DNA of 64,000 bases from Ruegeria sp. EL01 (GTDB taxonomy: Bacteria > Pseudomonadota > Alphaproteobacteria > Rhodobacterales > Rhodobacteraceae), in assembly GCF_900313035.1 (NCBI RefSeq), contig NZ_OMPS01000046.1, positions 310,001 through 374,000 on the forward strand, written 5' to 3'. The number at the start of each line of letters is the position of its first letter. The stretch's first letter is position 1. Below the pieces are notes generated by a model that was given only the letters and a program-made list of their open reading frames with translations, ran no database searches and was not told where the DNA came from. Made by a program: the position numbers and the translations under genes. Below, in pieces: positions 8,871 to 51,628 of this stretch.

Positions 8871-8904
8871 CTTGATCCTGTATTTTCAGGTCTTATCTAA
8901 CAGT

Positions 8905-8955
8905 CAGAGGACGACCTCCCCTCACCGGGAAATCAGTCGGGACGACCCGACCTGA
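8905..8955 (+). promoter_or_regulatory. Guanidine-II (mini-ykkC) riboswitch
   Basis: Two hairpins with the diagnostic ACGR terminal loop lie in the leader of the SMR exporter. P1 is GAGG-ACGA-CCTC (8907-8918). P2 is GTCGGG-ACGA-CCCGAC (8936-8951), extendable by TCAG/CTGA with one bulge. The 17-nt linker is within the usual range. The Shine-Dalgarno AAAGG (8958-8962) follows directly, so guanidinium-stabilised P1/P2 would leave it free. In mini-ykkC RNAs, ligand binding to the two loops turns on the downstream gene. The downstream gene is the expected exporter. Confidence 0.93.
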
Positions 8956-8969
8956 TCAAAGGTGTTCTT

Positions 8970-9281
8970 ATGTCTTGGATTTTTCTTTTGTTCGCTGGCC
9001 TGTTGGAAATCGTTTGGGCTGTTGCCATGAAGCAATCTGCCGGGTTCACGCGCTTTTGGCCCACGGCGATCATGGGCGTGTCGATGATCGGATCCTTTGG
9101 TCTGTTGGCACTGGCGATGCGCACTCTGCCGCTCGGGACAGCCTATGTCATCTGGACCGGCATCGGCGCTGTTGGTGCGTTTATGGTTGGCATCATGTTT
9201 TTGGGTGAAGCCATCACCCCATTTAGGATTCTTGCGGCCGTTCTGATTGTGTCAGGTCTTGTCGTTATGAAGATGTCTTAG
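8970..9281 (+). CDS. gdx: SMR-family guanidinium exporter (Gdx/SugE type)
   Basis: This 103-aa inner-membrane protein has four TM helices. The helix-1 motif WIFLLFAGLLEIVWAVAMKQS carries the essential membrane glutamate; SugE/Gdx proteins share this GLLEVxWAxxLK pattern. The second signature is LPLGTAYVIWTGIGAVGAF in helix 3. SugE/Gdx proteins exchange guanidinium for protons, and the guanidine-II riboswitch 15 bp upstream supports that role over a QAC efflux role. SD AAAGG lies 8 bases before ATG 8970. A deaminase gene follows after 77 bp on the same strand. Confidence 0.93.
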   Translation: MSWIFLLFAGLLEIVWAVAMKQSAGFTRFWPTAIMGVSMIGSFGLLALAMRTLPLGTAYVIWTGIGAVGAFMVGIMFLGEAITPFRILAAVLIVSGLVVMKMS

Positions 9282-22901: not shown

Positions 22902-22978
22902 GCGGTTGTAGCTCAGATGGTTAGAGTACCGGCCTGTCACGCCGGGGGTCGCGGGTTCGAGCCCCGTCAACCGCGCCA
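22902..22978 (+). tRNA. tRNA-Asp (anticodon GTC), copy 1
   Basis: A 77-nt cloverleaf with acceptor GCGGTTG/CAACCGC, anticodon stem CCGGC/GCCGG with loop CTGTCAC (GTC), T-arm GCGGG-TTCGAGC-CCCGT and encoded GCCA end. It is identical to the second copy 120 bp downstream. Confidence 0.97.
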
Positions 22979-23021: not shown

Positions 23022-23098
23022 GCGGTTGTAGCTCAGATGGTTAGAGTACCGGCCTGTCACGCCGGGGGTCGCGGGTTCGAGCCCCGTCAACCGCGCCA
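23022..23098 (+). tRNA. tRNA-Asp (anticodon GTC), copy 2
   Basis: Base-for-base identical to the copy at 22902-22978. Identity stops almost exactly at the mature gene ends, so gene conversion or selection rather than a recent large duplication maintains it. Confidence 0.97.
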
Positions 23099-48056: not shown

Positions 48057-50321
48057 CTACTTCTGCTGGTCCTGTTGAACCTTTTGGGCCACTGCGTCTC
48101 CTGCGGCGGCACCCACAGCTGCCTTCTGTTCTTCGCTGAGGTTTTCAGCCTCTTCCAATCCGGGAATTGCAACGCGAACCTCGCGGCGGGCAAAATCGAT
48201 GCCGTTGGCATTGAATTCGGCCTTTACGCGGTTGAAGATTTCTTTGCGCAGCGTGAACTGTTTACCGGGTTTGGCCATGAACTTGCCACGGATGATCATA
48301 CCCACATCATCAAAGTCGAAAACGCCTTGCGATTTGAAGGGCTGTAGGAACCCATCTTTGTGGGTTTCGTCCGCTATCATCTCGGCACCGATCTTTTTGA
48401 AGATCTTCTTGACTTTGTTCGGGTCGGTGTCAAACGGAACGGTGAACTTGAGCTTCATGATCACCCAATCGCGGCTGAAGTTGGTCAGCTTCTGAATTTC
48501 TCCATACGGGATGGTGTGAACCGGTCCACGATGGTGGCGGAGTTGCATCGAACGGATGGAGATTTTCTCGACCGTGCCCATGGTGCCACCGACATCGACA
48601 TACTCACCAACGCGGAAAGCATCGTCGATCAGGAAGAAGACACCGCCGACAATGTCGGCCACCAGTTTCTGAGCACCAAAGCCGATCGCCAGACCCAGAA
48701 CACCGGCACCAGCCAGCAGCGGGGTGATATTGATACCCAACGCACCCAGCGCCAACAGGCCAAAAATGACAACAATCGTTGCTTGAGCGGTAATTCGGAG
48801 CAGCGGCAGAACCGTGGCCAGACGCGATCCACCAGCCCCTCCGCCTTCACCGCCGGCTTCCTCATCCAGCGCTTCAGCCGCGGTTTGTTCTTTGGCCAGG
48901 CGGCGGTTGATCCACAGTGATACGACCTCGTTCATGATGTAGCCGACAGCGATGATGAGCAGGAATTCGATCACTGCGCCGCCAACCTCGGCACCAATGC
49001 CCGCTGATGCAACGTCGCGCAGGTCAAGTTCCCAAGTGCGCGAAATCATAAAGACAACGAACAACCCGGCCAGAACGCGACCAATCCGAATGTAACTGCG
49101 TTTGGTCGACCGATAGGCTTGTTCAGCCAGCGACCCTTCGCCGGACATCGGAGGCTGAAGGTGACGCACGAGACCACGAATGAGCGTATCCAGCGCAGGC
49201 GCTATCAACAGCCAGAACATGGTTGTGAAGTGTGGTCCCTTGGAAAGCAGAGCGAGGGTCGAAGGATCGCGCTGTGCAATAAGAAACTCGACAAGCAACC
49301 AGACCGCCGCTGAAACACCGATCGCGAAGTAGGGGTAATAATGCGCTACCTCTTCATCGAATTTGGTGTGATCAGGATCAGTGCCCAGCATCATCTGAGA
49401 CAAGCCCTCTCGGGCCGTCCATGCGATTACGCCGATATAGATGTGTATCGCGGCATTAAGCCAGAAACCAATCCGGGTCTCAGCAGGCGTGACGCCATTA
49501 AGCGCATTGAACCGGACGATAAACAGAGTGAATCCGACCAGAAGAAGCAGGCCAATCAAATTTCGGTGCAGATATTTTGCCCAGTGGTCGTCTATGTTGA
49601 CCAACCGATAATGTGGTTTGCTGGGAGCAAGTATGAAACGTGAGGCTGCAGCGCCCAAGCGTGGAACCCAGATCAGGTAAAACACAAATGGCGCGGCATA
49701 TGTAATCTGTTCTGGTGTGAGCAAACCGCGTCCAAGTGCGCGTATCACGACATAAAACACAATGAGCCCGGCGATCTCGCGGCAGAAACGGCGAAACAGA
49801 TATCGGACTGCGCCCCAAAGGTCGGCTTCCTCTTCTCCACCGGACTGTTCGTGCCATTTGCGGGTGAGCAGTCCAAACAGTTTTTCGGCTGCGTATCCGG
49901 CCACCAGAACCGTCAAGATCAACCCAAGCAGCTTGAACACGCCGTTTGATCCGAAGGTTGTTGAAAAACTGTCGAACGCTTTGACCTGCGCGCTGACGAT
50001 ATTTGGTAAAGTCGTCAGAACCTGGGTCCATGATGTGACCATCTCGGCCCAAATTTCGCTGATCTCGGTGAGTGGATCTTCGACATCTTCCTTGGCTGCT
50101 GCTTGTTTCTTCGCGACAGCATCAAGGCGTTCCAGCAGAATTGCGCGAACCTGATCGTCCGACATCCGCGCGACCAGACCATCGACTTGTTCAGGCGTCA
50201 GGTCTTCGGGAATGCTAACACTGGAGGTTGAACCCGTCGTGCCGGTCACTTGCGCGTGCAGCGGACCTGAGAGCAGTAACACTGATAGCAACGCCATCAG
50301 TATGCGAATTGGGTGGAACAT
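48057..50321 (-). CDS. Large mechanosensitive channel, MscS family
   Basis: A 754-aa membrane protein with a signal peptide and a periplasmic N-terminal region (LTPEQVDGLVARMSDDQVRAILLERLDAV), several TM helices, and the MscS core. The pore helix region LALGALGINITPLLAGAGVLGLAIGFGAQKLVADIVGGVF is characteristic, followed by the beta domain (VGEYVDVGGTMGTVEKISIRSMQLRHHRGPVHTIPYGEI, quoted in part). It resembles MscK/YbdG-type long channels protecting against hypoosmotic shock. GAGGACA lies upstream. Confidence 0.92.
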   Translation of the reverse strand: MFHPIRILMALLSVLLLSGPLHAQVTGTTGSTSSVSIPEDLTPEQVDGLVARMSDDQVRAILLERLDAVAKKQAAAKEDVEDPLTEISEIWAEMVTSWTQVLTTLPNIVSAQVKAFDSFSTTFGSNGVFKLLGLILTVLVAGYAAEKLFGLLTRKWHEQSGGEEEADLWGAVRYLFRRFCREIAGLIVFYVVIRALGRGLLTPEQITYAAPFVFYLIWVPRLGAAASRFILAPSKPHYRLVNIDDHWAKYLHRNLIGLLLLVGFTLFIVRFNALNGVTPAETRIGFWLNAAIHIYIGVIAWTAREGLSQMMLGTDPDHTKFDEEVAHYYPYFAIGVSAAVWLLVEFLIAQRDPSTLALLSKGPHFTTMFWLLIAPALDTLIRGLVRHLQPPMSGEGSLAEQAYRSTKRSYIRIGRVLAGLFVVFMISRTWELDLRDVASAGIGAEVGGAVIEFLLIIAVGYIMNEVVSLWINRRLAKEQTAAEALDEEAGGEGGGAGGSRLATVLPLLRITAQATIVVIFGLLALGALGINITPLLAGAGVLGLAIGFGAQKLVADIVGGVFFLIDDAFRVGEYVDVGGTMGTVEKISIRSMQLRHHRGPVHTIPYGEIQKLTNFSRDWVIMKLKFTVPFDTDPNKVKKIFKKIGAEMIADETHKDGFLQPFKSQGVFDFDDVGMIIRGKFMAKPGKQFTLRKEIFNRVKAEFNANGIDFARREVRVAIPGLEEAENLSEEQKAAVGAAAGDAVAQKVQQDQQK

Positions 50322-50428: not shown

Positions 50429-50459
50429 CCAAAAAAAAGGCCGAGCACGAAGCTCGGCC
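50429..50459 (-). terminator. Intrinsic terminator of candidate sRNA/LysR transcript
   Basis: On the minus strand, GGCCGAGC-ttcgt-GCTCGGCC is followed by eight or more T residues. The stem is perfect with a 5-nt loop. It ends about 140 bp beyond the LysR stop. Confidence 0.85.
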
Positions 50460-50514
50460 GTAGTCCAACAGGGAGGTATGAAGATGATGAGCGTTACAGC
50501 ATCACCGCCTTCGA
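50431..50514 (-). ncRNA. Candidate trans-acting sRNA (about 84 nt) with CCUCCC motif
   Basis: The minus-strand sequence from about 50514 would start CTCGAAGGCGGTGATGC, contain CATCATCTTCATACCTCCCT, and end in the GGCCGAGC hairpin and U-tract. A sigma-32-like promoter (CTTGAAC-N13-CCCCTAAAT, 50549-50521) precedes it at a proper distance. The CCUCCC anti-Shine-Dalgarno motif, heat-shock-type promoter and terminator recall the RpoHI/RpoHII-dependent, Hfq-linked CcsR/cuckoo sRNAs of Rhodobacter. The exact 5' end is estimated. No good reading frame lies in the transcript. Confidence 0.5.
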
Positions 50515-50520
50515 GTGCTC

Positions 50521-50549
50521 ATTTAGGGGTCAGTTTGTTAACGTTCAAG
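50521..50549 (-). promoter_or_regulatory. RpoH-like promoter upstream of candidate sRNA
   Basis: Minus-strand CTTGAAC (50549-50543), a 13-bp spacer, then CCCCTAAAT (50529-50521). The same architecture, with the same 13-bp spacer, is seen before lon at 16426-16453. Confidence 0.55.
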
Positions 50550-50598
50550 GTATTTTAACCTTACTTTAGGGCATGTCCGATATGCGGTCGCTGCATAC

Positions 50599-51507
50599 CT
50601 ATAGTTTTCCCATTTGCTTCAGTTGCTTGCGTTGCGCGATGATCTCGTCCTGAACGAAATCTCGGAACGCAGCAACCCGCTGTGATTGGCGCAATTCCTC
50701 GGGGTAAGCGAGGTATACCGGCACATCCGCAGTTTCGATATCCGACAGGACAGGAACAAGATGGGGGAAGTCCTGAGTTACATAATCCGGCAGAACGCCG
50801 ATGCCCAGATTGTGCAGCACCCCTTGCAGGACACCGAAGTAATTATTGACTGTCAGCAATGACCTGGGGTTGTACGTCATCAGATGCCCCACCATCGATG
50901 CGCTTGCCCCGACCTGCGGCGCGGCGGGTGTTTGACAGATCAAACGGTGGTTTTTGATGTCTTCCAGATGTTCCAGCATACCCCCGTGGGTTTCGATGTA
51001 CTCTTGCGTGGCATACAGCATCATCTGCACAGTCATCAGGCGCTTGCGGACAAGATCGGCCTGGCTGGGTTCTTTCATGCGGATGGCAACGTCCGCCTCG
51101 CGCATGGGCAGGTCCAGCACACGCTCTTCCAGCATCAGGTCAATGTTGAGGTCGGGGTATTGTTCATACAGTTTCGGCAGACGAGGGGCCAGCCACAGGG
51201 TCCCAAAACCGAAGGTCGTTGTGACGCGCAGAACGCCAAAGACTTCTTCTTCGCTGTCGCGAATACGGGCGGCGGCGGCATCCAGACGTTTGGACATGGC
51301 AGAGGTGGCATCGAACAACAGCTCGCCCTGTTCAGTCAGGATCAGGCCGCGCGCGTGCCGGTGAAACAGTGTCGCGTCGAGTGATTCTTCCAGCGCGCGG
51401 ATTTGACGACTGACGGCGGATTGCGACAGGTTCAGCTTGTCGCCCGCATGAGTCAGGCTGCCTGCGTCTGCAACCGCGTGAAATATTCTAAGCTTGTCCC
51501 AATCCAT
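50599..51507 (-). CDS. LysR family transcriptional regulator, divergent from ior
   Basis: A 302-aa LTTR. The HTH reads DWDKLRIFHAVADAGSLTHAGDKLNLSQSAVSRQIRALE (quoted in part), and the effector domain EVFGVLRVTTTFGFGTLWLAPRL follows. It starts at ATG 51507 and faces the ior gene with 169 bp between, including a T-N11-A dyad. Probably it controls aromatic amino acid or arylpyruvate oxidation; the effector is not known. Confidence 0.93.
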   Translation of the reverse strand: MDWDKLRIFHAVADAGSLTHAGDKLNLSQSAVSRQIRALEESLDATLFHRHARGLILTEQGELLFDATSAMSKRLDAAAARIRDSEEEVFGVLRVTTTFGFGTLWLAPRLPKLYEQYPDLNIDLMLEERVLDLPMREADVAIRMKEPSQADLVRKRLMTVQMMLYATQEYIETHGGMLEHLEDIKNHRLICQTPAAPQVGASASMVGHLMTYNPRSLLTVNNYFGVLQGVLHNLGIGVLPDYVTQDFPHLVPVLSDIETADVPVYLAYPEELRQSQRVAAFRDFVQDEIIAQRKQLKQMGKL

Positions 51508-51609: not shown

Positions 51610-51628
51610 AGGTCAGAATATATGACCT
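51610..51628. promoter_or_regulatory. LysR-type dyad between LysR gene and ior
   Basis: AGGTCA-gaatata-TGACCT has 6-bp arms and a 7-bp spacer and contains a T-N11-A core. It lies 48 bp before the ior start and 102 bp from the LysR start. This is the expected placement of an LTTR operator. Confidence 0.6.

Follow-up and report, generated by a model that had tools for sequence, protein, structure and literature searches.

A small RNA gene downstream of lysR

On the minus strand of the window (the whole 64,000-nt stretch of Ruegeria sp. EL01 DNA analysed here), a gene for a small RNA (50431–50514), which on the evidence below is an orthologue of SorY, lies between the gene of a LysR-family regulator upstream (50599–51507; PF00126 and PF03466 above cut-off) and that of an MscS-family mechanosensitive channel downstream (48057–50321; PF00924, PF21082 and PF21088). 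The transcript is approximately 84 nt long, with a putative start at 50514, and ends in a U-tract. Two RpoH-like promoter elements can be read directly ahead of it on the same strand, a −35 element CTTGAAC (50543–50549) and a −10 element CCTAAAT (50521–50527). A preliminary description of this DNA had given the promoter as CTTGAAC-N13-CCCCTAAAT, which is what the minus strand reads: CTTGAAC from 50549 to 50543, 13 nt, and CCCCTAAAT ending at 50521. The transcribed region contains CAUACCUCCCUG, also as described, and closes with an intrinsic terminator hairpin (50439–50459), a perfect 8-bp stem with 7 G-C pairs and a loop of 5, followed on the minus strand by eight U, written as T in the DNA (50438–50431).

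Folding of the estimated 84-nt transcript, 50514 to 50431, gave −32.4 kcal/mol (z = −4.84), and none of 200 shuffles folded as well. The CCUCCC stretch sits between two hairpins in the predicted fold; the minimum-energy structure adds a 2-bp pair within this stretch, and the centroid structure is without that pair. The first of the two, a 5′ hairpin (50480–50512, minus strand) supported by the fold and by covariation, is variable in sequence and conserved in pairing. It closes just 5′ of a near-invariant single-stranded core of 16 nt, ACCUCCCUGUUGGACU (50462–50477, minus strand), which contains the anti-Shine–Dalgarno CCUCCC and is proposed as the seed. Further upstream stands a LysR-type box, TGCAGCGACCGCA (50583–50595, minus strand), of the form TGC-N7-GCA with a T-N11-A motif, its centre at approximately −75 from the start. 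The 5′ hairpin, the full 16-nt core and the box were all absent from the preliminary description.

Generic scans of the region returned close to chance numbers, with one sigma-70 promoter versus 1.4 expected and three terminators versus 2.3 expected. The locus is more than chance because it is conserved across relatives, not because of these scans, and the observation as first described is correct and not a chance one.

Elsewhere in the window, a Guanidine-II riboswitch (8903–8950; 35.2 bits, Rfam) lies around 20 bases ahead of a 103-aa open reading frame (8970–9281) that, by eye, resembles a small multidrug-resistance-type transporter, and two neighbouring tRNA genes (22902–22975 and 23022–23095, both 67.9 bits) are apparently a tandem pair.

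Conservation of the RNA and its promoter

A relative of the LysR protein at E ≤ 1e-60 is present in 145 of the 149 genomes of the family sample, and we inspected all 145 lysR loci downstream, the nearest 30 with flanks of 1.5 kb and the 115 others with flanks of approximately 3 kb or, where the contig was shorter, up to its end. Within 900 nt past the stop codon of lysR, 128 of 144 loci contain the exact core CCTCCCTG[TC]TGGA (L299 was left out, there being no lysR match in the fragment). A covariance model, R1, built from 16 sequences including the window, gives the window RNA, as one of its training sequences, 105.9 bits. The model matched 98 of 100 sources in a first set (the window and 99 loci; 98 distinct sources) and 38 of 45 further lysR loci, so that the covariance search in relatives suggested in the preliminary description found the RNA at 136 of 145 lysR loci, training sequences included. 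The nine loci without a match are L053, L242, L256, L280, L283, L291, L293, L297 and L299; by eye, L293 holds a diverged sorY copy, and L242 stops at a contig end. SorX loci match the model as well, at a lower 36.3–55.0 bits, and the covariance score alone does not separate SorY from SorX in diverged genomes. At one locus, two matches to the model follow lysR in tandem (L287:3062-2990 and 2889-2807; 65.5 and 52.0 bits), perhaps by local duplication.

Two lines of evidence support the predicted structure. First, in an alignment of the 98 first-set sequences fitted to the model, a procedure that favours structure, 94.9% of cells are paired, whereas shuffles reach 83.7% and slid controls no more than 49%; double changes occur at 19 of 21 pairs and, within helices 1–3, which make up the 5′ hairpin, at all 11 pairs (the terminator is helix 5 of this test). 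Second, when the 5′ parts of 129 of the 134 loci described below were folded without any alignment, 94 of the 129 sequences beat all 50 of their own dinucleotide shuffles.

For promoter, box and core-column counts, 134 of the 144 loci were used. These had been found by CCTCCCTG[TC]TGGA or else by [CT]CTCCCTG, and the CTCCCTG columns are thus conserved by selection of the loci; the core columns past them (TTGGACT) are conserved in 129–134 of 134. CTTG stands at −35 in 123 of the 134 lysR-linked loci, and 115 have a step of 21–22 nt to the −10 element, whose columns were likewise counted across the loci. With a threshold of 11 out of 15 on the combined promoter score, 116 of 134 loci pass, versus 12 of 564 control windows taken farther downstream. 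Both the promoter words and the LysR-type box had been picked from these same 134 loci, with identical words used in the controls, and for this reason the two counts were repeated on 105 fresh named loci.

These further loci come from outside the family sample, where the exact pattern CATACCTCCCTGTTGGACTNNGGCC occurs in at least 118 stretches of named genomes, the titles of nearly all the matches listed naming Rhodobacteraceae genera or alphaproteobacterial MAGs. Removing 5 with short flanks and 8 duplicates from the 118 listed leaves 105, all chosen by exact core. Among these listed matches, 90 of 105 reach the promoter score versus 50 of 1690 controls, and 103 of 105 have a LysR match within 1600 nt upstream (E ≤ 1e-10, a threshold that can admit paralogues). 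The exact core pattern also occurs on a contig whose title names an Alteromonadaceae MAG, at its end (L123:4840-4864); the contig is probably misplaced.

Conservation of the promoter, CCUCCC and terminator in relatives, the test named in the preliminary description, is therefore borne out. Of the synteny expected there, the lysR–sorY neighbourhood is conserved, but the lysR–mscS pairing is not: the lysR–sorY–mscS arrangement is real but local, mscS being found within the flanks of 14 loci out of 145, and purL within those of 98.

Orthology with SorY of Rhodobacter sphaeroides

The Rfam SorY model (RF02651) matches the window at 50431–50511 over its full length, with 57.5 bits and E 3.8e-11 under relaxed thresholds, and the locus is the best SorY match in its own genome. 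This score does not reach the gathering cut-off of 111 bits, which R. sphaeroides SorY itself, at 115 bits in genome G051, exceeds by only 4. The cut-off thus admits only near-identical sequences, and we accordingly call the window RNA a SorY orthologue and not a curated RF02651 member. In 14 control genomes searched with the Rfam SorX and SorY models, the sole match was in Caulobacter vibrioides, under both cut-offs.

Genome G051 is in all likelihood R. sphaeroides 2.4.1; the Rfam search places its SorX at 2,598,225–2,598,299, and the 75-nt SorX of R. sphaeroides is reported with its 5′ end at 2,598,224 (PMC6238624). The G051 relative of the window LysR (74% identity; C4:1631580-1632473) is followed directly by SorY (L185:1246-1328). 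The published transcription start of R. sphaeroides SorY, 1,632,642 (PMC6238624), is L185:1243, and the equivalent window base is 50514, in agreement with the start near 50514 estimated in the preliminary description; the covariance model's first position, set in every locus by a fixed step from the −10 element, is L185:1243 as well.

The window RNA resembles R. sphaeroides SorY in lying 3′ of the orthologous lysR, in its equivalent RpoH-like promoter and start, and in its 5′ hairpin, with two hairpins flanking the core CAUACCUCCCUGUUGGACU. The two RNAs have the stretch CUUCAUACCUCCCUGUUGGACU in identical form and the same terminator stem, GGCCGAGC/GCUCGGCC. They differ in the sequence of the 5′ hairpin and in their surroundings: by eye, R. 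sphaeroides has a terminator-like hairpin between lysR and sorY, whereas none was found there in the window, which instead has mscS downstream, in a genome with no clear takP orthologue. Because synteny is shared and the R. sphaeroides start falls on the base equivalent to 50514, we conclude that the window RNA is a SorY orthologue.

SorY, formerly RSs1543, is described in R. sphaeroides as RpoHI/RpoHII-dependent and as co-immunoprecipitated with Hfq (PMC5036791), and RpoH-type promoters of that species as having a conserved TTG at −35 (PMC3441632). Judged by its letters, the predicted sorY promoter fits this type. Orthology with SorY thus lends support to the original proposal of an independently transcribed, RpoH-type, stress-linked small RNA with an anti-Shine–Dalgarno core.

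Alternative explanations

The window RNA might mainly arise by processing from the 3′ UTR of lysR transcripts, a reading that the preliminary description had also considered, in the manner of SorX, which is reported to be an RNase E cleavage product of the ompR-1 3′ UTR (PMC6238624, PMC8625941). Transcripts of lysR could end at the sorY terminator: a terminator scan found no further minus-strand terminator between lysR and sorY in the window, and read-through from lysR is possible for this reason. As the main source of the RNA, however, processing is very unlikely, since most relatives have an RpoH-like promoter in the same fixed place, the published accounts give R. sphaeroides SorY its own promoter and transcription start and describe it as not processed (PMC6238624, PMC8307010), and at L208, where over 1 kb separates the two genes, sorY retains its promoter.

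A second copy of SorX (RSs2461, RF02784) rather than SorY is a very unlikely identity, even though SorX is the only small RNA family to pass its gathering score at this locus (47.7 versus 46.6 bits in a whole-window scan). For SorX, as for SorY, dependence on RpoHI/RpoHII and co-immunoprecipitation with Hfq are reported (PMC5036791), and the core ACCUCCCUGUUGGA, followed in SorX by a GGCC-type terminator as it is here, is common to both. Cross-matching is to be expected, however, R. sphaeroides SorY itself scoring 43.6 on the SorX model, and the genome already has a SorX of its own on a different contig (C25:46585-46655; 79.6 bits), with an apparent response-regulator C-terminus upstream by eye. 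Unlike SorX, which is cut from the ompR mRNA, the window RNA follows a gene of LysR type and not an ompR-type response regulator, and its synteny, promoter and 5′ hairpin fit SorY. We reject the SorX identity because this genome encodes SorX elsewhere and because the locus is syntenic with R. sphaeroides SorY. The genome also contains a weak SorX-like match (C49:487999-488059, equal to L004:1501-1561; 26.3 bits) that contains CUUCCUCCCUGUCGACU and a hairpin resembling a terminator; it may be another sibling RNA of SorX and SorY.

The preliminary description had also raised membership in the CcsR-type group (CcsR1–4; the SmelA075 and SmelA099 group), which also bears the name cuckoo. The CCUCCC anti-Shine–Dalgarno stretch and RpoH-type promoter of the window RNA are in keeping with this group, which is stress-linked and has an anti-Shine–Dalgarno motif of CCUCC type; CcsR is likewise reported as RpoHI/RpoHII-dependent (PMC5036791). 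Membership is nonetheless extremely unlikely, and is rejected on motif position: RNAs of the group are described as having two to four hairpins with CCUCCUCCC repeated in their loops (PMC3927594), whereas the window RNA has one CCUCCC, placed in an unpaired linker core, and lies downstream of lysR and not of ccaF1.

That the region is the lysR terminator only, with no functional RNA, has a negligible probability: although the window RNA is known from sequence alone in this species, a terminator needs neither the near-invariant core nor the covarying 5′ hairpin nor the conserved promoter, and in R. sphaeroides both Northern blots and RNA-seq have shown the orthologous SorY (PMC6238624, PMC7866481).

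The best explanation, and in our judgement a highly probable one, is that the locus is this species' SorY gene, with RpoH-type stress transcription and a core that pairs with target mRNAs. The first interpretation of the candidate is, overall, partly supported.

Proposed pairing of the core with target mRNAs

As a SorY orthologue, the gene would be transcribed by an RpoH-type sigma factor from its own promoter under heat or oxidative stress, as its promoter motif and the R. sphaeroides data suggest. The 5′ hairpin and the terminator hairpin are predicted, with support from covariation, to leave the 16-nt core single-stranded, and the core would then pair with target mRNAs together with Hfq, as proposed by extension from R. 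sphaeroides SorY. CCUCCC would cover the Shine–Dalgarno sequence GGGAGG, with the GGAC end as a second contact. SorY probably acts, as far as pairing potential indicates, by covering the ribosome-binding sites of transporter mRNAs; nutrient-uptake genes such as those of TRAP transporters would be lowered in translation or stability, and carbon flow into respiration would thereby be reduced during stress.

In G051, the DctP-family gene L396 gives a full-length match, of 365 residues, to PDB 2hzk, which we take to be TakP (the molecule name of the entry is SmoM). Its leader reads GUCCACAAGGGAGGAAUGCC-AUG and is predicted to pair with the SorY core through CCUCCC:GGGAGG and GGAC:GUCC at −24.2 kcal/mol, which makes the takP initiation region the best of the 9 G051 DctP genes, the next being at −21.3 (start codons were chosen by script). 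The mRNA of takP, which encodes a malate transporter (PMC8307010), is the reported SorY target in R. sphaeroides (PMC6238624). With a longer core the predicted energy against takP is −25.8 kcal/mol, a value that 2 of 1000 shuffled cores reach; CCUCCC can pair with any good Shine–Dalgarno sequence, which makes duplex energies weak evidence, and these predictions support, but do not prove, the core as the seed.

No clear takP orthologue is present in the window genome, where the best two proteins have 35% identity, and the targets here are for this reason probably other genes. The two TakP-like genes give −15.4 and −15.2 kcal/mol and are not among the strongest predicted pairings. Best of the genome's 19 DctP genes is L397, at −23.6 kcal/mol (script-chosen start codons, a few of them doubtful), as a predicted target a lead only. 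Allowing at most one mismatch, CAACAGGGAGG occurs at 77 places in this genome versus 48 for the reversed pattern, and at 51 places in G051 versus 22. Among the 60 of these 128 places that we inspected, 22 have an open reading frame of at least 60 codons close downstream, and no common function was seen. A search of the 149 genomes for the perfect 12-nt complement CCAACAGGGAGG shortly before ATG matched 88 genomes and gave no evident shared target, many matches being, to judge by their coordinates, the antisense of sorX or sorY.

A LysR-type box upstream of sorY

LysR-type sites follow a T-N11-A pattern. A conserved palindrome whose heart is TGC-N7-GCA follows the lysR stop ahead of the −35 box, and within 75 nt upstream of the −35 element this heart is present at 110 of 134 loci versus 21 of 705 control windows. 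It starts 46 nt before the −35 start in 66 loci and 45 nt before it in 29, with a second position at 21 nt in 25. Among the listed matches that make up the further named loci, it is found in 96 of 105 versus 47 of 1690 controls, again mostly at 46 nt (70) and 45 nt (16). Seven scored lysR loci without sorY (L053, L242, L256, L280, L283, L291 and L297) are without the palindrome too, their best scores of 9–11 being control-like. Where lysR and sorY lie more than 1 kb apart, at L208, sorY keeps a copy of the box that differs by one base.

The box is not exclusive to sorY, because of the 22 places at which a stricter pattern occurs in 10 genomes, 7 are at sorY (coordinates read by eye) and 15 lie elsewhere. 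Self-regulation of LysR through the same box was not seen, since only 2 of 30 loci have an exact TGC-N7-GCA in the 220 bases ahead of lysR. Because it is another palindrome that stands there, the link from LysR to SorY is drawn from gene neighbourhood and box position alone. A literature search, with the original SorY and SorX papers outside its scope, found SorY and LysR both named only in the reference list of one paper.

A different palindrome, AGGTCA-N6to8-TGACC, stands upstream of lysR in 28 of 30 near loci. The window has it as AGGTCA-N7-TGACC at 51610–51627, between lysR and a divergent indolepyruvate ferredoxin oxidoreductase gene, and it is perhaps the operator of some regulator.

From the position of the box, the neighbouring LysR may control SorY. 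The stronger form of this proposal, that SorY is a dedicated output of the adjacent LysR besides being a stress RNA driven by a sigma factor, is conceivable from the same arrangement, and we lean slightly against it.

Implications

The window gene is of the same kind as the known SorY; what is added is a wider picture of its conservation and a regulatory lead. A small RNA known from work in R. sphaeroides turns out to have a gene conserved in synteny across the family as sampled, with covariation in its structure and a seed that hardly varies, and predictions of its targets and regulators thereby become testable in many genomes. SorX and SorY have one common core sequence despite their different origins. 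Finally, the adjacent LysR is a concrete candidate for a second input into SorY: if it does control the RNA, a metabolite sensed by LysR would gate the stress induction of SorY, and nutrient uptake would be coupled to heat and oxidative stress.
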